A stretch of DNA of 64,000 bases from NCBI GenBank assembly GCA_002254845.1, contig NKPT01000013.1:1-64000 (forward strand). Direction: 5' to 3'. The notes beneath the pieces were generated by a model. It worked only from the letters and a program-made list of their open reading frames with translations. It did not search any database and had not been told where the DNA came from. The position numbers and the translations under genes were made by a program. Positions 29,086 to 37,987 of this stretch are shown here, one piece after another (the first letter of the stretch is position 1; each line of letters opens with the position of its first letter). This DNA comes from Chloracidobacterium sp. CP2_5A. Lineage in GTDB: Bacteria > Acidobacteriota > Blastocatellia > Chloracidobacteriales > Chloracidobacteriaceae.

Positions 29086-31788
29086 TCAGGGCGTGGCTGG
29101 CTGACCAAGCGCCCGGCTGACGGCCGACAACAAAACCTCTGGCACGAAGGGCTTTTGAAGAAACACGGTCGCCTGCGCGGATAGCTCGCTTGAAATAGCC
29201 TCTTCGCCGTAACCGCTTGCCACAAGAACCGGCGCATTGGGCCGCTGGCGGCGAATGGCTCGCAAGCATCCCAGTCCATCGAGCTTGGGAAGCATAGCGT
29301 CCAGAATGACCAGCTTGAAGGCGTCGGGGGCTTCTGTGAAAAGCTCGACGCAGCGCTGTCCGTTCGCGGCTATAACGACGCTATACCCGGCTTCCTGGAG
29401 AATTTCCGTGAAGAGCTGGGCAATCAGGGCGTCATCTTCAGCGATCAGAATGAGGTCGGATGCCGATTCCGGACTCCTAATCGCGCTCAGGCCGTTGCTC
29501 GGCGTGGGGGAGGCGCCCTCGAAGGGGAGATGCTCGCCGGTCGGCGCCAGGCGCAGGGCCGGGAAACGAACTTCAAAGCGGGTTCCCTTCCCCGGAGCGC
29601 TTTCCACCGTGATCGTGCCGCTGTGGGCTGTCACGATGCCATGAACAACCGATAGTCCAAGCCCGGCGCCGTCACCCATATCCTTGGTCGTGAAAAATGG
29701 GTCGAAGACGTGCTGCCGAGTCGCCTCATCCATGCCGATGCCGGTGTCCGCGACCGTGAGGCAAACGCAACGCCCTCCAAGCTGTCCGCTTATGGTTCGT
29801 CCGTCGCGCTTGACAGGAAAGACTTCAGCTCGCGTGCCAAGCGTGATCACGCCCCCGTCCGGCATGGCGTCGCGCGCGTTGAGGCACAGGTTGATGACCA
29901 CCTGCTGAATCTGATCCGGGTCGCCTTCAAAAGCGGGCAACTCGGAAGCGAGATTGGTCACAACCTCTATGCTCGGAGGCAGCAACCCGCGCGCGAGGTA
30001 AAGGCTGTCTTGGACCACGGCCGTTAGGTCGATCATCTGTCGGGAAGCTTCTTTCCGCCGCCCAAAGGCCAACAGCTTCGATACCAACTGGGCTGCGCGC
30101 TCGGCGGAAGATTCAATCGCCTTGAAGCACTCTTCGAGCGTGGCGTCCTCGCCTAGCGCGACCTTGCGCTTGGCTAATCGTGAAAATCCAAGGATGCTGT
30201 TGAGCAAGTTATTGAAGTCATGGGCGACGCCGCCAGCCAGACGACCAACCGCTTCCATTTTCTGCGCTTGCTGCAGCGTCGCTTGCAGGCGTTTGCGCTC
30301 GCTCACGTCGCGCATGACGGCGATGAGATATTTTTTGCCGCCTGAGTAAAACTCCGACACGGAGTTTTCAACTTCCAGCGTGCCGCCGTCGGCGCGCTGC
30401 GCCACAAACTCGTAGGTCGGCGGCGCCGGCTCGCCCCGCATGCGCCGTTGGGTGTAGCTCCGCAGCCGCCCCTCCTCGTGCGGAGCGCACATAAGGGAGA
30501 AATCTTGCCCAATCAGCGCCTCCGGCGACTCGATGCCATGAAGCCGCGCGACCGACTGATTGGCATAAACGATCCGCTGATCATCCTCGACGATGATGCC
30601 GTCCAGCGTGGCGTTGAGAATGGCGTGAAACCATTCCTCCCGCTGCCGCAGGCGCTCGGTGAGCTGTTTGGCTTCGGTAACATCCTGAATGATCGCCAGC
30701 TGACAGGGCAGGTCGCCAATGACCAGCGTTACCGCCGATAGAACCGCTTCGCCCAGACGACCGTCGCGCGCGCGGTAGCTGCCTTGGAAGTCGAGCACCT
30801 GCCCGCGAGCTTCAAGCTCCCGGTAGTATTGCTCGCGCTGCTCCAGCTTTTCCCACAGACCCAGTTCGAGCGCCGAGCGACCAATGACTTCCGCTCGCGT
30901 GTAGCCGAAGAGCTTGGTGAAGGCGGCATTGATATCGAGGTAGCGGCCATCCGGTATCGTCTGAATCGAGGTCGCCAGCGGGATCACTTGAAACACTCGG
31001 TAGAAACGCTCCTCGCTCTCAACCGAGCGCAGCTTGGCCGCCTGCTGGTCGCTAATGTCCTCGACGTAAATCGATACCGCGTCAGCCGCGAAGCCATGCC
31101 GTCGCAGCGGCTCGAAGGTCGCGGAAAACCACCGCGATGAGCGAAGCGACTGGTGAACGAAAGACACGCCGCGCCCCAGGCGAAGCGCCTCGCGGCACCA
31201 CCGCTGCCACACGGATACATCCGCCATCTGCGCTTCCGTGAGACCCAGCTCATCCAGCGGCGTGTCAATCAACTCCTCCGGCGAGCGCCCGAAATCCAGG
31301 GCGAAGGCGCGATTGATGATGCGAAAGACAAAGTGCTGGCCAACGCTTTCCATCACGGCCAAACGCGCTGGAGAAGCGACCGAAAGCCCAGCGACAAACG
31401 CCGAGCGCAGGGCGGCGGCGGCCAACTGTCGGCTTGCCTCAACAGCCTGCCGAATACGCTGAATCGCCAGCGGCAACGGCGTCTGCTCGTCCACGCAATC
31501 CCACGCGCCGGCCTCTAGCCAGCCCGACAAGCGTCGGTCGGCAAGGCTCTCCGCGCAGATCAGAATGGGCACCTGACGGTTGCGGGCCGCTTTCCACCAG
31601 TCCAGAGCGGGATTGCACGCCGAGGCCTCGGCATCGAGCAAGACAGCGCTGGTCTCAGCCGGCCAAGCGGATGATTGCGCTGGAAGAGGGCCAACCGCAA
31701 AGCCGCTATCGCGCAGTCCCGAGGCCAGTTGCGCTAGAAGTGGCGACGAGCCAATGGTGGCGATGAAGCTTGGTCGAGGAGCTGACAA
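29086..31788 (-). CDS. hybrid PAS sensor histidine kinase with C-terminal receiver
   Basis: 900 residues. Order: a receiver-like domain (about 1-115, with ETSAVLLDAEAS), three PAS domains (about 140-250; 255-375 with PDGRYLDINAAFTKLFGY; 380-505 with DDQRIVYANQSVARLHGI), and a HisKA helix with the phospho-acceptor in LAGGVAHDFNNLLNSILG (about 535). The ATPase domain has VVINLCLNARDAMPDGG, VADTGIGMDE and DGAGLGLSVVHGI. A C-terminal receiver has ILIAEDDALIA and the acceptor Asp in LVILDAMLPKLDG (about 820). No membrane span is evident, so it senses a cytosolic or partner signal. The only in-frame start after the upstream stop is TTG 31788, without a clear ribosome binding site. No output regulator is adjacent. 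Confidence 0.9.
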   Translation of the reverse strand: MSAPRPSFIATIGSSPLLAQLASGLRDSGFAVGPLPAQSSAWPAETSAVLLDAEASACNPALDWWKAARNRQVPILICAESLADRRLSGWLEAGAWDCVDEQTPLPLAIQRIRQAVEASRQLAAAALRSAFVAGLSVASPARLAVMESVGQHFVFRIINRAFALDFGRSPEELIDTPLDELGLTEAQMADVSVWQRWCREALRLGRGVSFVHQSLRSSRWFSATFEPLRRHGFAADAVSIYVEDISDQQAAKLRSVESEERFYRVFQVIPLATSIQTIPDGRYLDINAAFTKLFGYTRAEVIGRSALELGLWEKLEQREQYYRELEARGQVLDFQGSYRARDGRLGEAVLSAVTLVIGDLPCQLAIIQDVTEAKQLTERLRQREEWFHAILNATLDGIIVEDDQRIVYANQSVARLHGIESPEALIGQDFSLMCAPHEEGRLRSYTQRRMRGEPAPPTYEFVAQRADGGTLEVENSVSEFYSGGKKYLIAVMRDVSERKRLQATLQQAQKMEAVGRLAGGVAHDFNNLLNSILGFSRLAKRKVALGEDATLEECFKAIESSAERAAQLVSKLLAFGRRKEASRQMIDLTAVVQDSLYLARGLLPPSIEVVTNLASELPAFEGDPDQIQQVVINLCLNARDAMPDGGVITLGTRAEVFPVKRDGRTISGQLGGRCVCLTVADTGIGMDEATRQHVFDPFFTTKDMGDGAGLGLSVVHGIVTAHSGTITVESAPGKGTRFEVRFPALRLAPTGEHLPFEGASPTPSNGLSAIRSPESASDLILIAEDDALIAQLFTEILQEAGYSVVIAANGQRCVELFTEAPDAFKLVILDAMLPKLDGLGCLRAIRRQRPNAPVLVASGYGEEAISSELSAQATVFLQKPFVPEVLLSAVSRALGQPATP

Positions 31789-31945: not shown

Positions 31946-32851
31946 TCAATCGCTGCGCGCATAGCTTTTCGCTCGCGCGAGCGACTCGGTGATAAACCGC
32001 CAGGTCTCGACTTGAGCCTGCACCGGCGTTAGATCAAGCTTGAGGACGTGATCCAAGTGATCCTGCGGCGCGAAGCCTTGCACCGCGCCAACGTTGAAAG
32101 TCCGCGAGAAAACCACCCGCGAATCCACCTCGTCAATCGCTTGACCGGCGGCGTCCACTTTACGCTCGTGCAAGCCGTACATCACGTAGCACGCCGTCGA
32201 GCCATGAACCAACAGGTAAAGCTCGACCGCGTCGAACTTTCCTATGTAGCGCAACTCGTCCGCCTGACTGATGTCCACTGACGGCTTGGTTTCGGTCTGA
32301 ACCGTGGACACTGTCTTGGTCAAATGCGTGTTGAGGCGGCCATCCATGATAACGATGGTCGGCGCGCGCAGGTCATCGGGCTTAGCGCACTCGGCCAGCG
32401 CGGCGCTCAGCGCGTCAAAAGCCGCCTTGGCGTCCACATAGGCCTTGCGCGCATCAAGGTAAAGCTTCGAGTTCGGGTTTGCCCGATAGACGCGATTAAG
32501 CTGCTCATAATAGTTGTTCAGAAGCGCATAACGCTCTTGAACGCGCCCGCTCCAGCCCGTGTAGAGCGCGCTGTATTCCTCATACCGCAAAGCCCGACGA
32601 TTCCCTCGCTGAATCAACGGGGAAGCGGCGAGCTGCTTCTGCATCTCGTCAATCTCGGTCTTGAACGAGCGCAGAGCCGCCAGCAGCCCCGCTTCGGAGA
32701 GCAGTCCAGGCGACTGCGCCAGAAGCGGCGAGCCAAGCCAGCCGAACAGGAGCGTGACAGCCGCGACCCGGATAAGGGCGAAACTGCGCGAGCCAAAAAA
32801 GACGGGGAGCGGGGCTAGATGAACGCTACCAAGGCTTCCATTGCGCATCAT
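31946..32851 (-). CDS. secreted protein, paralogue 1 of an unnamed tandem family
   Basis: 301 residues from ATG 32851, which follows GGAG by about 10 bases; a longer in-frame start at 32944 is rejected because the sisters are 298 and 301 residues. A signal peptide ends near SPLLAQS. The mature N-half is helical: YEEYSALYTGWSGRVQERY, QLNRVYRANPNSKLYLDARK, AYVDAKAAFDALSAAL. The C-half is mixed: LRYIGKFDAVELYLLVHG, ACYVMYG, HLDHVLKLDLTPVQAQVE, and a terminal RAKSYARSD. It is the most diverged of the three, lacking SRF before IGKF. The family is not one I recognise; no enzymatic motif, cysteine pair or lipobox is seen. Conserved RAKSY at the C-terminus suggests the end of a domain. Confidence 0.7.
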   Translation of the reverse strand: MMRNGSLGSVHLAPLPVFFGSRSFALIRVAAVTLLFGWLGSPLLAQSPGLLSEAGLLAALRSFKTEIDEMQKQLAASPLIQRGNRRALRYEEYSALYTGWSGRVQERYALLNNYYEQLNRVYRANPNSKLYLDARKAYVDAKAAFDALSAALAECAKPDDLRAPTIVIMDGRLNTHLTKTVSTVQTETKPSVDISQADELRYIGKFDAVELYLLVHGSTACYVMYGLHERKVDAAGQAIDEVDSRVVFSRTFNVGAVQGFAPQDHLDHVLKLDLTPVQAQVETWRFITESLARAKSYARSD

Positions 32852-33027
32852 AACAGCAACTCCGAGCAAGTCTGGCGAAAATGCCTGTCTCTCCCTAAAA
32901 ACGAGCTTTTCTGTTAGAAAAATCATCAGGCAAGCTGTAATCATTAGCGGTTGAGTAGTGAAACACGAAAGCGACAGCTTTGTAAACAGCTTCCCGTCTA
33001 AACGTGACGCGCCCCAGGCGACGCGTC

Positions 33028-33072
33028 AAAAAAAGAAATAGCGGGGAGGCTTCTGTCAAAAGCCTCCCCGCT
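33028..33072 (-). terminator. Rho-independent terminator after paralogue 2
   Basis: A 13-bp perfect stem (AGCGGGGAGGCTT at 33040-33052 with its complement at 33060-33072) and a 7-base loop lie 42 bases past the stop at 33114. Read leftward the stem is followed by ATTTCTTTTTTTG. This separates paralogue 2 from paralogue 1, so each has its own transcript. Confidence 0.9.
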
Positions 33073-33113
33073 GACCGCTTGTCCGCTTTGCGGGCAACGA
33101 CCCGCGCTGCGCA

Positions 33114-34010
33114 TCAATTGATGCGCGTGTATGACTTCGCCCGCATGAAGAATTCGCTGAGATTGCTGAGAACCTCTCCTTGCGCCTCGACCGAGGCAAT
33201 CTTGAGCTTGAGCGCGTTTTCCAGGTGCTGGGTCGCGGTCAGGCTGCGCACCGACGGCTGAAAGGGAAACATTTCCGAGCGCACCACCGAGAGATGGAAC
33301 TGCTCGCTGGGCTTCCCTTCGTCATTGGTCACGACCTCCTTCCAGCCAAACATGACATAGCAGGCCGCATCGCCCTTGACCAGCAGGAACATCTCGACGC
33401 CATCAAAGTTGCCGATAAAGCGCGAGTCATCCGCCTCGATGATGTCTTTCGCCGTCTCGGCTGGCGCAGGCGGCAGGGCGGCGCTGCGCGCCGAGGTCGC
33501 AATACGCTCATTCAAGCGCCGGTCGGCGACGGCGACGGCTTCCGTGCGCAGCGATTCGGGATGCTCGACCGCGCTGAAGGTTGACTTGAGATTGTCAAAC
33601 GCCGCCTTGGCGTCGAGATAGGTTTGCGTCATAGACTTGTATAGCGGCGAGTTCGGATTCGTCCGATACACTCGGTCAATCTGAGCGTAGCAGGCCGCCA
33701 GCCGCCGATAACAGTCTTCAATCTTCCCATTATAGGCTTCAAATGTTCGCCGGTAGCTCTCGTAGTCCATCGTGCGACGACTTAGCCGTCCCGCCGCCGC
33801 GCCCTTGCCCGCCACTTGCGAAAGCAGGTCAAGTATCTCGCTACGCAGGGCGCGCAAGGTCGCGATGATTTCGCTGTCGCCCATCACCTGTCCCTGCGTC
33901 GCTGGCCGGGACGCCGCCGGGCGCATCCCGGCCGCTGTCCATCCGCAGCACAGCGCGGCCATGACCGCCACGCTGCAGACTTGTCTTCTGAATGCTGAAA
34001 GATAATGCAT
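33114..34010 (-). CDS. secreted protein, paralogue 2 of an unnamed tandem family
   Basis: 298 residues with a signal peptide (VCSVAVMAALCCGWTAAG). Shared family blocks: MGDSEIIATLRALRSEILDL, YESYRRTFEAYNGKIEDCYR, QIDRVYRTNPNSPLYKSM, TYLDAKAAFDNLKSTFSA, DDSRFIGNFDGVEMFLLVKG, ACYVMFGWKEVV, FHLSVVRSEMFPF, QHLENALKLKIASVEAQGE and RAKSYTRIN. It is visibly closest to paralogue 3 and ends with its own strong terminator. GAAGGGG lies 7 bases before the ATG. The likely place is periplasm or cell surface. Function unknown. Confidence 0.72.
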   Translation of the reverse strand: MHYLSAFRRQVCSVAVMAALCCGWTAAGMRPAASRPATQGQVMGDSEIIATLRALRSEILDLLSQVAGKGAAAGRLSRRTMDYESYRRTFEAYNGKIEDCYRRLAACYAQIDRVYRTNPNSPLYKSMTQTYLDAKAAFDNLKSTFSAVEHPESLRTEAVAVADRRLNERIATSARSAALPPAPAETAKDIIEADDSRFIGNFDGVEMFLLVKGDAACYVMFGWKEVVTNDEGKPSEQFHLSVVRSEMFPFQPSVRSLTATQHLENALKLKIASVEAQGEVLSNLSEFFMRAKSYTRIN

Positions 34011-34256
34011 ACAACGCCCCTTCCGGCTTTGTAAAAGTCGCTTGAACGCGCTGAGTCAACGCCTCGCTGCGGGCCGGGAAGCCCTGATGCGCGCCCCGCG
34101 CTGCAAAAATACAGGGCGGCGCGAACCATTTCGAGTCGCGCCTGTACTTTTGTGTTTTATAAGCAAGAATAAATCAATGGCCCTGTCTCTTGCTGAACAC
34201 ATAAGCGGCGCGACATCAAGCGCCTCCCGCGCCAGGGGCGACCCTGACGGATTACG

Positions 34257-35162
34257 TCAGTTTGTCCGGGTGTAGGATTTGGCTCGCGCAAAAAACTGCT
34301 TGATGTCAGTTAGCGTTTCGCCCTGCGCCTCGACCAAGGCGATTTTGAGCTTGAGCGCGTTTTCCAGGTGCTGCTCCGCCGTCATGGCGCGCACTGCCGG
34401 CGTGATGGGGAAAGCTTCGGAGCGAACGACGGAGAGGTGGTACTCTTCGATTGACTTGCCGTTGTCGTCATTGACCACGTCTTTCCATCCAAACAAGACG
34501 TAACAGGCGGTGTCGCCGCGCACCAGCAAAAACATTTCCACGGCGTCGAAGGTGCCGATGAAGCGGGAGTCGTCGGCCTCAACGATTTCCTTGGCGGCTT
34601 GAGCCGGGGCCGGCGGCGCGTCCGCCGAGCGCATCGACGCGGAAACGCGCTCGTTAAGCCGCGTGTCATTCGAGATCACCGCTTCCGTTATCGTTTGCTC
34701 GGGCGGCTCCAGGGCGCTAAACGTGGATTTCAAATTGTCAAAAATGGCCTTGGCATCCAGGTAAGTCTTCACCATTTGCTTGTAGAGCACGGAGTTCGGG
34801 TTGGCGCGATAGACGCGGCTGATCTGCTCGTAGCAACCCGAGAGGCGGCGATAGCTATCATCGATCTTGGCGCTGTAGGACTCAAACGCCTGCCGATAGG
34901 ATTCGAAATTCATGACCCGTCGATTCAGACGAGTCGCCGCCGCGTCCTTGCCGGCGACCTGAGCGATCAAGTCGAGCATTTCGCTGCGCAGCGCTCGCAA
35001 TGTCGAGATAATTTCACCATCCGACAGGACGTGATCCTGCGATGGCTGCGCCAGCCCGCGCGCGGATGGCGACATCGCCATCAGGCTAAGCAACGCGCAC
35101 AGCCACGGCAGGCGGCGGAGAGCCAATAGCTTCCCATACTTCATAGCGCGCATAGTCATCAC
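34257..35162 (-). CDS. secreted protein, paralogue 3 of an unnamed tandem family
   Basis: 301 residues with a signal peptide (LLALRRLPWLCALLSLMAMS). Same blocks as paralogue 2: LSDGEIISTLRALRSEMLDL, YRQAFESYSAKIDDSYRRL, QISRVYRANPNSVLYKQM, TYLDAKAIFDNLKSTFSA, DDSRFIGTFDAVEMFLLVRG, ACYVLFGWKDVV, YHLSVVRSEAFPI, QHLENALKLKIALVEAQGE and RAKSYTRTN. It is the first of the three in transcription order (35162 leftward). The 246-base gap to paralogue 2 has no gene. Function unknown; tandem duplication with independent divergence is inferred. Confidence 0.72.
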   Translation of the reverse strand: MMTMRAMKYGKLLALRRLPWLCALLSLMAMSPSARGLAQPSQDHVLSDGEIISTLRALRSEMLDLIAQVAGKDAAATRLNRRVMNFESYRQAFESYSAKIDDSYRRLSGCYEQISRVYRANPNSVLYKQMVKTYLDAKAIFDNLKSTFSALEPPEQTITEAVISNDTRLNERVSASMRSADAPPAPAQAAKEIVEADDSRFIGTFDAVEMFLLVRGDTACYVLFGWKDVVNDDNGKSIEEYHLSVVRSEAFPITPAVRAMTAEQHLENALKLKIALVEAQGETLTDIKQFFARAKSYTRTN

Positions 35163-35247: not shown

Positions 35248-35276
35248 TTGACACAGCAATGTTACGGTGCTGTAAA
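35248..35276 (-). promoter_or_regulatory. possible promoter with embedded dyad upstream of paralogue 3
   Basis: On the minus strand TTTACA (35276-35271), a 17-base spacer and TGTCAA (35253-35248) are spaced like a -35/-10 pair, though the -10 is poor. A dyad ACAGCA (35253-35258)/TGCTGT (35268-35273) spans the spacer, as an operator would. It lies 86 bases upstream of the start. Upstream of paralogues 1 and 2 a TTTACAAAGC string is also present. Confidence 0.3.
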
Positions 35277-35345: not shown

Positions 35346-36641
35346 TCAGCCCGCGACGGCAATCGCCGGGCAAGCGGCTTGGTAAGCCAAATAGGTCTCG
35401 TCGAGCACGGCGTCCCACGAGGCCCGTAGCGCCCGCGCCCGCGCCGCCGCCCGCATAGATTGGCGGCGTTCCGGGGAGCGAATCAGAGCGGCGGCGGCTG
35501 ACACAAACTCGGCGTCGTCGCGCGCAATCAGTCCTGACTGCTCGTGATCAACCAGAAACTTTGGCCCGCCATCGCTAGTCACGATGCAGGGTACGCCCGA
35601 TGCCGCCGCCTCCAGCACGACATTGCCGTAGGTATCGGTTCGGGAGGGGAAAATGAAGATGTCGAAGTCCGCGTACTCCCGCGCCAGCGCTTCGCCGCGC
35701 TGAACGCCGGCAAAGCTCGCCGTCGGCATGGCGGCGGCGAGCCAAGCGCGCTCGCTGCCGGCCCCGACAATGCGAAACTCGATCCGGGTCAGGCCCTGCG
35801 CTCGAAGCTGACGCTCTAATTCGGCCAGAAAGCGAACATTCTTCTCCACGGCGAGCCGCCCGACGAATCCTAAGCGGACTATCGGCGCGTCCAGCGGACG
35901 GGAGCGGTAGCTGGGGTGAAACGCCTCGGCGTCGATGCCGCGTTGCATCAAGTAGGTCGGCTTCCCGGTCTTCTCCGCCACGAGCGCGACCAGCTCCGGG
36001 TTCGGGGCCAGGCAGACATCCGCGTACTCGTAGAATTTCATCGTCGCCCAGAGCGACTGCGTCGCGGCCCAAGCGCTCGTCCGATCCCGCACCAGCGGCG
36101 ACACAAAAGCGTAGTCGAGCAGCCGCGACCATCGCTGCCCAGCGTACTCATGCAGGTTGGTATGCCAGGACATAACCAGCGGCAAATGTAGCGCCTTCGC
36201 CACGTACACGCCCAGTTGCCCAATGTCGCTCGGCCCGGTCACGTGAACCACCTGCGGGCGGAAGGCGCGGACTTGCTCGCGCACTTCGCGGGCGTAACGC
36301 CACAGCCACAAGTCAAAATTCAAATCGGCGTCCAGCGGAAAGGACCAGCCTCCCCGCTGAAGCTCAATGGCGGTCACAGACCCATCGTTTTGGGGTCCGC
36401 CGGAAGCGCCCCCGCAACGAACAATGAGCAATGGCAGCCTGCGGCGGCGGGCCACGCTCGCCAGCGCGCGAAAGGTGCGGGCCACGCCGTTGGCCTCGTG
36501 AAAAGAATCCGGGAAGAGCGCGATGCGAAGAGCGTCAGACATAAAGCGCGTCGGCGCGGGGCAGCGAAGGGGGCGAAGCGTTTGATCAGCCGCCGGGGGG
36601 CTGACGACTTCCTGACGCGCTGATGCCGGACGCGCTGTCAT
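35346..36641 (-). CDS. GT4-family glycosyltransferase
   Basis: 431 residues if started at ATG 36641, which overlaps the upstream stop (ATGA) and follows GGAG by about 11 bases; the recognisable fold begins at MSDALRIALFPDSFHEANG (ATG 36542, 398 residues). A GT-B enzyme: HVTGPSDIGQLGVYVAKAL and MSWHTNLHEYAGQ in the N-domain, VRLGFVGRLAVEKNVRFLAE at the hinge, and PSRTDTYGNVVLEAAASGVP (nucleotide-sugar binding Glu region) in the C-domain. It resembles alpha-mannosyltransferases of phospholipid or surface-glycan synthesis; donor and acceptor are not known. Coupled to the PHP gene. Confidence 0.88.
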   Translation of the reverse strand: MTARPASARQEVVSPPAADQTLRPLRCPAPTRFMSDALRIALFPDSFHEANGVARTFRALASVARRRRLPLLIVRCGGASGGPQNDGSVTAIELQRGGWSFPLDADLNFDLWLWRYAREVREQVRAFRPQVVHVTGPSDIGQLGVYVAKALHLPLVMSWHTNLHEYAGQRWSRLLDYAFVSPLVRDRTSAWAATQSLWATMKFYEYADVCLAPNPELVALVAEKTGKPTYLMQRGIDAEAFHPSYRSRPLDAPIVRLGFVGRLAVEKNVRFLAELERQLRAQGLTRIEFRIVGAGSERAWLAAAMPTASFAGVQRGEALAREYADFDIFIFPSRTDTYGNVVLEAAASGVPCIVTSDGGPKFLVDHEQSGLIARDDAEFVSAAAALIRSPERRQSMRAAARARALRASWDAVLDETYLAYQAACPAIAVAG

Positions 36642-37789
36642 CGTTCGCTCAGCTCCAGTTGGGGCTTAGGGAGCGCCATCTCCAGCGCCGGGCGCCAGCG
36701 CCGGCGTCCAAGTTGCTGGAAAATCCAGGTTGCCGCGCGCGCCCAGAGCGGGCTGTGCTGAGCCCAGCATTCCTGGAGCGAGCAGGGGCGACCTTGCGCG
36801 TCAAGAAAGAAGACCCGCTCCGTCCAGTGCCGCTGACCTTCAGGGTAATCGGGGTACTGGTCGAGAATTTGGGTTGCCGCTTCAAAGATGCGCAGCGCCA
36901 TGTTTTCCTGGTATTCCGGCAGAACGACCACGTGGCTGCGGCGCTGAAGGCGCAGCTCCGCGACCATCTCCTCGAAGGTCGTCGCGTCGGTCAGGTTCAC
37001 CACTGTGTTCGGAGAAAGCCCGTGGCGGTCGCCGCCGGAAACCAGCGGCAGGTCGCGGTCCCGCGCCAAGCGCGCGACCGCGAGGTTCTCGCGCCAGGAC
37101 CGGAAGCCATTGATTTCGAGCGCGTGCAGCCAGCGTTTGTAGCGGTCGAGAAAATCGCCGAGGGCCGCCATGTGCCGCGCTTGGCCAATGTTTTCAATAT
37201 CCCAGATGGGATGATTCAGCACGACCAGCACGCCCGGCAGGGCGTTGAGCATCGAGAGCAGTTCCTCTAGAACTTCCGGCTGGCGGCGCGCTTCCGGGTC
37301 GCGGGTGAAGGCGAACAGCTCGTCGGCAATCGCGCGCGCATGGTCGGGCGGCAGATTGTGAACGCCGATATGAAAGTAGGCCACGCCAAACGGCACCGTC
37401 CACTCCGTGGAGATGGGCGCGTCCGCGCCGGTGGCGCGCAAGCCGCAGCAGGCTTCGATTTCATCGTGGTCGGTAATCGAGACAATGGCCTGCGCGCCAA
37501 GGGCGTTTTCGATGTGGCGCGTCTCGGCGTCAAGCAGAACGCCCGGCGTCACCGGCGGCGTCCACCACGCTTTGGCGAAATCCAGCGGGCGTCCGTGTTG
37601 AGCTTCATAGCGCTGGCACAGGCGGGCGAAGCGGTGGGCGACAAAGGGAATCTTGGCGGCGTAGTGGGGGATGAAATCGAGAACTTCGCGGGAGAACTTG
37701 GTGTGACAGTGGAGCGAGACGCCGGTGCGCATCCCGTGGCGGAAAGCGTCTCCCGGCTTGACGATGCTGAGAGTTGTTGAGTGCGGCAT
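36638..37789 (-). CDS. PHP-domain phosphoesterase-like protein
   Basis: About 383 residues from ATG 37789, preceded by AAGGGA. PHP motifs: SLHCHTKFSREVLDF (HxH), IVSITDHDEIEAC (DHD), VVLNHPIWDIENI (NHP), and LVSGGDRHGL (GDxH). PHP proteins are metal-dependent phosphoesterases (histidinol-phosphatase, polymerase PHP), but the substrate here is not evident. The distance between the HxH and DHD motifs is unusually large (over 80 residues), with an insertion containing the WW and TPPVTPGV segments. The C-terminal 90 residues are unassigned. The ATGA overlap with the glycosyltransferase suggests a joint role in a surface-glycan or lipid pathway. Confidence 0.8.
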   Translation of the reverse strand: MPHSTTLSIVKPGDAFRHGMRTGVSLHCHTKFSREVLDFIPHYAAKIPFVAHRFARLCQRYEAQHGRPLDFAKAWWTPPVTPGVLLDAETRHIENALGAQAIVSITDHDEIEACCGLRATGADAPISTEWTVPFGVAYFHIGVHNLPPDHARAIADELFAFTRDPEARRQPEVLEELLSMLNALPGVLVVLNHPIWDIENIGQARHMAALGDFLDRYKRWLHALEINGFRSWRENLAVARLARDRDLPLVSGGDRHGLSPNTVVNLTDATTFEEMVAELRLQRRSHVVVLPEYQENMALRIFEAATQILDQYPDYPEGQRHWTERVFFLDAQGRPCSLQECWAQHSPLWARAATWIFQQLGRRRWRPALEMALPKPQLELSER

Positions 37790-37987
37790 GAGTCCCTTCT
37801 CTGCGGAATCCGTTTGGCGACGCATCGCCCGCGGTGGTGGCCGCGCCGCGGGCGACAGGATGAATCGGGCGAGCGAGCCGCGACCATTCAAGATGTAGGG
37901 CGTGATTCCTTGTGTCGGGACTTTCGTATAGAGAAGCTGTGTGACGGCCATGTGTTAAGAAACTGAAATCGGCAGTCCGGCTCCCGC

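Follow-up and report, generated by a model that had tools for sequence, protein, structure and literature searches.

A family of putatively exported proteins in Chloracidobacterium, with a conserved tandem array and a dispersed fourth paralogue

Three paralogous genes, A, B and C, are arranged head to tail on the minus strand between positions 31946 and 35162 of the window (the whole 64,000-nucleotide stretch of Chloracidobacterium sp. CP2_5A that we analyzed), and together with a dispersed fourth paralogue, D, they are present in all seven Chloracidobacterium genomes compared. We propose that the four encode soluble proteins of the periplasm with a binding or scaffold role in the cell envelope, a reading to which we give a probability of roughly 0.45. 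CP2_5A comes from a Japanese hot spring (PMC5629043). Members of its genus are non-motile phototrophs with a pair of chromosomes, one of about 2.7 Mb and one of about 1.0 Mb (PMC8245765). In all three two-contig genomes both the array and D sit on the contig close to 1 Mb in size.

The array, its distribution and its age

The features of the array region are collected in Table 1. An earlier sequence-only reading of this DNA had reported three tandem reading frames of 301, 298 and 301 residues, and both sizes and coordinates are correct; the frame of C is in addition open to 32944, which would give 332 aa. That reading also placed A and B closest and C apart, which sequence alignment bears out (62-66% identity for A-B, 34-37% for A-C and B-C). 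The ordered sequence blocks that it listed are all present in A, B and C and in the same order, but two residue details differ: in the third block, F(D/A)xVExxLLVxG, FA is never seen and the pair is always FD, and in the fifth, HLxxxLKLxLxxxxAQ(V/G)E, a position given as L is either L or I.

Table 1. Features in and around the array, in window positions
Feature	Position	Strand	Remarks
Hybrid histidine kinase, PAS-HisKA-HATPase-REC	29086..31788	-	next gene after C, same strand
Paralogue C	31946..32851	-	no. 1 of the sequence-only reading; 301 aa from ATG at 32851; diverged
Degenerate element upstream of C	32971..32986	-	TTTACAAAGCTGTCGC; 2 mismatches; weak, not significant alone
Intrinsic terminator after B	33040..33072	-	15-bp stem, T-rich tail
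Paralogue B	33114..34010	-	no. 2 of the sequence-only reading; 298 aa; closest to A
Paralogue A	34257..35162	-	no. 3 of the sequence-only reading; 301 aa; GTG start; predicted exported
Upstream element of A, TTTACA-N5-GTAAC-N7-TGTCA	35249..35276	-	core 35261-35276
GT4 glycosyltransferase	35346..36641	-	upstream neighbour of A, kept in most of the genus

Family relatives were found in 10/10 genomes searched of the GTDB family Chloracidobacteriaceae. The earlier reading had proposed counting copies in related genomes, and this count gave the A-B-C array in 7/7 Chloracidobacterium genomes (G003 has C on another contig) and two copies in each of three further genera of the GTDB family: one A/B-type and one D-type gene in G008, two in tandem in G009, and two dispersed in G007. 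A search of the class matched 11 of 162 genomes, these being the ten Chloracidobacteriaceae and G152, whose match is one weak 86-residue fragment (E 9e-5), and a search of the phylum returned no match outside the GTDB family among the 396 genomes drawn. Within the genomes searched, the family is restricted to Chloracidobacteriaceae bar this one weak class-level fragment. In CP2_5A, D stands alone of the family on contig C277 as a 314-aa frame (L038:4971-5915), and comparison of loci revealed that its neighbours vary between species. D is intact in six genomes and in G004 is broken over several frames with TGA (L045:8690-9800; G004:C2, about 537.9-538.8 kb), which may be a sequencing error. At a G007 locus (L050:7251-9229) a family member is followed immediately by a tandem run of four small proteins, which have C-terminal hydrophobic stretches and a zinc-finger-like motif, RCEICHQxDxFxxETGxCxRC; the two that were scanned had no Pfam match.

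The array had been taken for a recent tandem expansion, a view that its genus-wide presence and the divergence of the paralogues overturn. Identity among orthologues is 72-98% for the A, B and C groups and 66-81% for D, and mean identity of the mature proteins within groups is 82% (A), 85% (B), 78% (C) and 75% (D); between groups it is 71% for A-B and 33-36% for every other pair. Given the same array in 7/7 genomes and the low A-C and A-D identities, the array predates the genus. Only A and B form a younger pair: in the tree C and D each form a clade of their own, and the single A/B-type gene of the sister genus G008 joins A and B, so that the A/B duplication is younger than the rest, several of the deep joins being long-branch and unsure. 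Median dN/dS (Nei-Gojobori) was 0.066 for A, 0.055 for B, 0.080 for C and 0.072 for D, values that are approximate owing to high dS (median about 1.6-1.8). They nevertheless point clearly to purifying selection on all four groups, in line with the selected function that had been suggested. Loss of the reading frames in close relatives had been named as grounds for refutation; the frames of A, B and C are intact in seven species and, with the low dN/dS, mark the three as real genes, above chance.

Export signals, family searches and predicted structure

A hydropathy scan, rather than SignalP, was used to call export. A hydrophobic N-terminal stretch was present in 33/33 family members and was followed in most by an A-x-A-like site, consistent with the signal peptide that had been ascribed to each paralogue. 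The scan found no lipobox adjoining the hydrophobic core in any of the 33, the few short lipobox-pattern matches lying elsewhere, and no second transmembrane segment. By these features the members are predicted to be Sec-exported soluble non-lipoproteins. Tyr, Gly, Leu, Phe and Pro make up most of the invariant residues in an alignment of 19 diverse members, which has a single conserved His and one near-invariant Asp and Glu. So few conserved His, Asp and Glu offer no obvious catalytic or metal-binding set, and the invariant residues look structural rather than catalytic.

The sequence-only reading had called the family unrecognised and had named a profile search as the check and a confident match to a characterised family as the refutation. 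Profile searches of Pfam, NCBIfam, PHROGs and PDB sequences returned no match to any entry, with membership judged by the curated cut-off for Pfam and NCBIfam and by a credible E-value for PHROGs. The best Pfam, NCBIfam and PHROG E-values, about 0.008-0.2, were scattered and came from one to three members each. Against PDB sequences the whole protein gave nothing credible (coiled coils at E 0.004), as did the C-terminal domain alone. An origin from phage or plasmids was rejected: plasmid sequences held no family match, nor did viral contigs in a search that reached close relatives only, and no PHROG match was credible.

Of the named families considered, WXG100/ESAT-6 (EsxA) shares a helical hairpin region and a marginal profile score (E 0.04-0.24), far under threshold. 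Those proteins are of about 100 residues, a helical hairpin with a central WXG, whereas A, B and C, at 298-301 aa, are three times longer, carry a Sec-type N-terminal signal and an extra alpha/beta domain, and have no WXG motif in their helical region; we therefore rejected membership. Uncharacterised lineage-restricted exported protein families are common, and the present family resembles that general kind in its narrow range, export signal, paralogues and lack of a named domain. It differs in its strictly kept orthologous tandem array and in an upstream element common to the array and a dispersed copy.

The structure prediction proposed alongside the profile search agrees with the helical-plus-mixed domain that had been described. 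AlphaFold2, with an input of five sequences, gave a mean pLDDT of 57.8 for full-length A and 64.9 for mature B, and modelled an N-terminal antiparallel three-helix bundle (pLDDT mostly 80-93) followed by a C-terminal part of four strands plus helices at low confidence (pLDDT about 55-79, below 50 in the last 27 residues). Foldseek and VIA-align matched nothing but generic three-helix bundles, both designed and spectrin-like ones. The likeness to spectrin repeats and the syntaxin Habc domain lies in the antiparallel three-helix N-terminal half, where about 100-120 residues superpose with an rmsd of 2.3-3.6 A (Z about 11-12); unlike them, this is a bacterial exported protein with no sequence relation to either and no tandem repeats. 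Since designed bundles score the same as spectrin and syntaxin bundles, the resemblance is structural only, and matches of equal Z to a wide range of unrelated coiled bundles say nothing on function. The helical bundle also dominated the structure matches that bear on the C-terminal fold, where the low confidence of the model means that an active site could be missed.

Probable transcription units and the upstream element

The strong terminator ascribed to B stands, and its equivalents, with 14-16 bp stems, follow B in four other species (G001, G004, G005 and G006); none reached threshold in G002 or G003. Between A and B no terminator was found in six of seven genomes, the seventh, G001, having a weak 7-bp candidate. 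The claim that the three genes are separate transcripts consequently survives for B and C, which the terminator parts, but probably not for A and B. Given a terminator after B and none after A, we read the array as A-B, probably one transcription unit, and then C. The hybrid histidine kinase comes next after C, in the same orientation, in 6/6 genomes whose flank was compared, at a gap of 140-228 bp in five (measured from longest frames), while in G003 a 490-aa open frame, a candidate kinase, begins 23 bp after C and runs past the sequence end. It is possible that C is co-transcribed with this kinase. On the other side of the array, the glycosyltransferase gene is kept in most of the genus, and we found no sign of a functional tie to the array. 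Also beside the array, in five loci, is a 437-aa protein (window 36638-37951, minus strand) with no Pfam match at E 0.001, which by eye we take to resemble PHP-type phosphoesterases.

Upstream of A in 7/7 genomes, and upstream of intact D in 6/6, the core TTTACA-N5-GTAAC occurs with no more than one mismatch, a level reached in 0.6% of random 260-nt pieces of the same loci, true sites included. As the element was discovered in these very regions, the 13/13 is descriptive, and its rarity genome-wide is the independent part. That search covered four genomes (CP2_5A, G001, G005 and G006). CP2_5A has eight sites at up to one mismatch, of which two are those of A and D, and because a reversed-pattern control gave six, one-mismatch sites elsewhere mean little. 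Among exact matches, the only two in G006 lie upstream of D and A, the sole one in G005 is the D site, and the sole one in G001 lies elsewhere, at neither A nor D. At D, TAACAT or TAATAT follows some 18 bases after the element, which may form part of a sigma-70-like promoter. No conserved version of the core was found upstream of B; a different block, like TTAnTCTTGCTT, is kept there in most species (about window 34155-34170, minus strand). The element common to A and D suggests co-regulation, and both this and common descent of the promoters are possible sources of the likeness.

Possible roles

Under the binding or scaffold proposal, the Sec-exported proteins would be soluble in the periplasm, or released. 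They would be non-catalytic, with the helical bundle making protein-protein or self contacts and the C-terminal alpha/beta domain holding a specific partner or ligand. The ancestor of Chloracidobacteriaceae would have carried one gene of A/B type and one of D type, if not more, and on the Chloracidobacterium stem the set would have become tandem A, B and C plus dispersed D, all maintained by strong purifying selection. The A-B and D units, with the same upstream element, would probably be switched together, with C as a unit of its own, perhaps with the downstream kinase. Of the surface or periplasmic function suggested by the sequence-only reading, a soluble periplasmic one is the simplest reading, and we found no support for the surface. 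Counted against a binding or scaffold role are the lack of any partner seen, the varying neighbours of D and its broken copy in G004.

Several other roles were weighed. The helical bundle with a small beta domain and no obvious catalytic residues would also suit chaperones or assembly factors that serve outer-membrane or secreted proteins in the periplasm, with paralogues differing in their clients, and two G007 loci lie near genes for TonB-type outer-membrane barrels; given that neither sequence nor fold searches matched a known chaperone and that no conserved client gene lies beside the arrays, we regard this as unlikely. Somewhat less likely again is that C, or the whole set, acts as an extracytoplasmic partner of the hybrid histidine kinase or of Ser/Thr kinases encoded nearby, presenting them with a periplasmic signal. 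The constant position of the hybrid kinase after C favours such a link, as does a response-regulator or Ser/Thr kinase gene near members in G007, G008 and G009, but the Pfam matches of the hybrid kinase show PAS only and no extracytoplasmic sensor domain, and D keeps no constant neighbour. With 35-137 Ser/Thr kinases per genome, proximity to them is expected by chance, which suffices for the cases in the three genera, and we rejected that link.

Membership of the phototrophic apparatus is highly improbable. FMO, the marker we used, is found in all Chloracidobacterium genomes and in G008, yet G007 and G009, at 99% completeness, have no FMO gene and two family members each, which disfavours phototrophy; moreover, PMC9751088 names reaction-centre genes with Cabther_A tags, whereas in two-contig genomes A-C and D are found on C2, the smaller contig. 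We consider it scarcely credible that the proteins are substrates or parts of type III secretion. That idea comes from the gene after D on L038, which scores over the cut-off for SctN, but an sctN beside D is unique to CP2_5A among the loci compared, no SctN-type ATPase exceeds the cut-off in G007-G009, all of which have the family, SctV/FlhA is absent from G007 and G008, and the N-termini are of Sec type. As an observation in its own right, an SctN-type ATPase occurs in 7/7 and an FHIPEP (FlhA/SctV) gene in 6/7 of the non-motile Chloracidobacterium genomes; in CP2_5A the two lie on separate contigs (SctN at C277, L038:5988-7313; FHIPEP at C113:6402-8384).

A bolder and rather doubtful reading is that all four paralogues make up a single envelope system private to Chloracidobacteriaceae, that their C-terminal domain has a new fold, and that a dedicated regulator reading TTTACA-N5-GTAAC switches the dispersed genes together. 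The family is otherwise one of many lineage-restricted exported families, from which the array and the shared element set it slightly apart. As a strictly conserved family it marks this phototrophic lineage of Acidobacteriota together with its sister genera, FMO-free ones included, and the shared element offers a practical way into gene regulation in Chloracidobacterium, of which cultivated strains exist.
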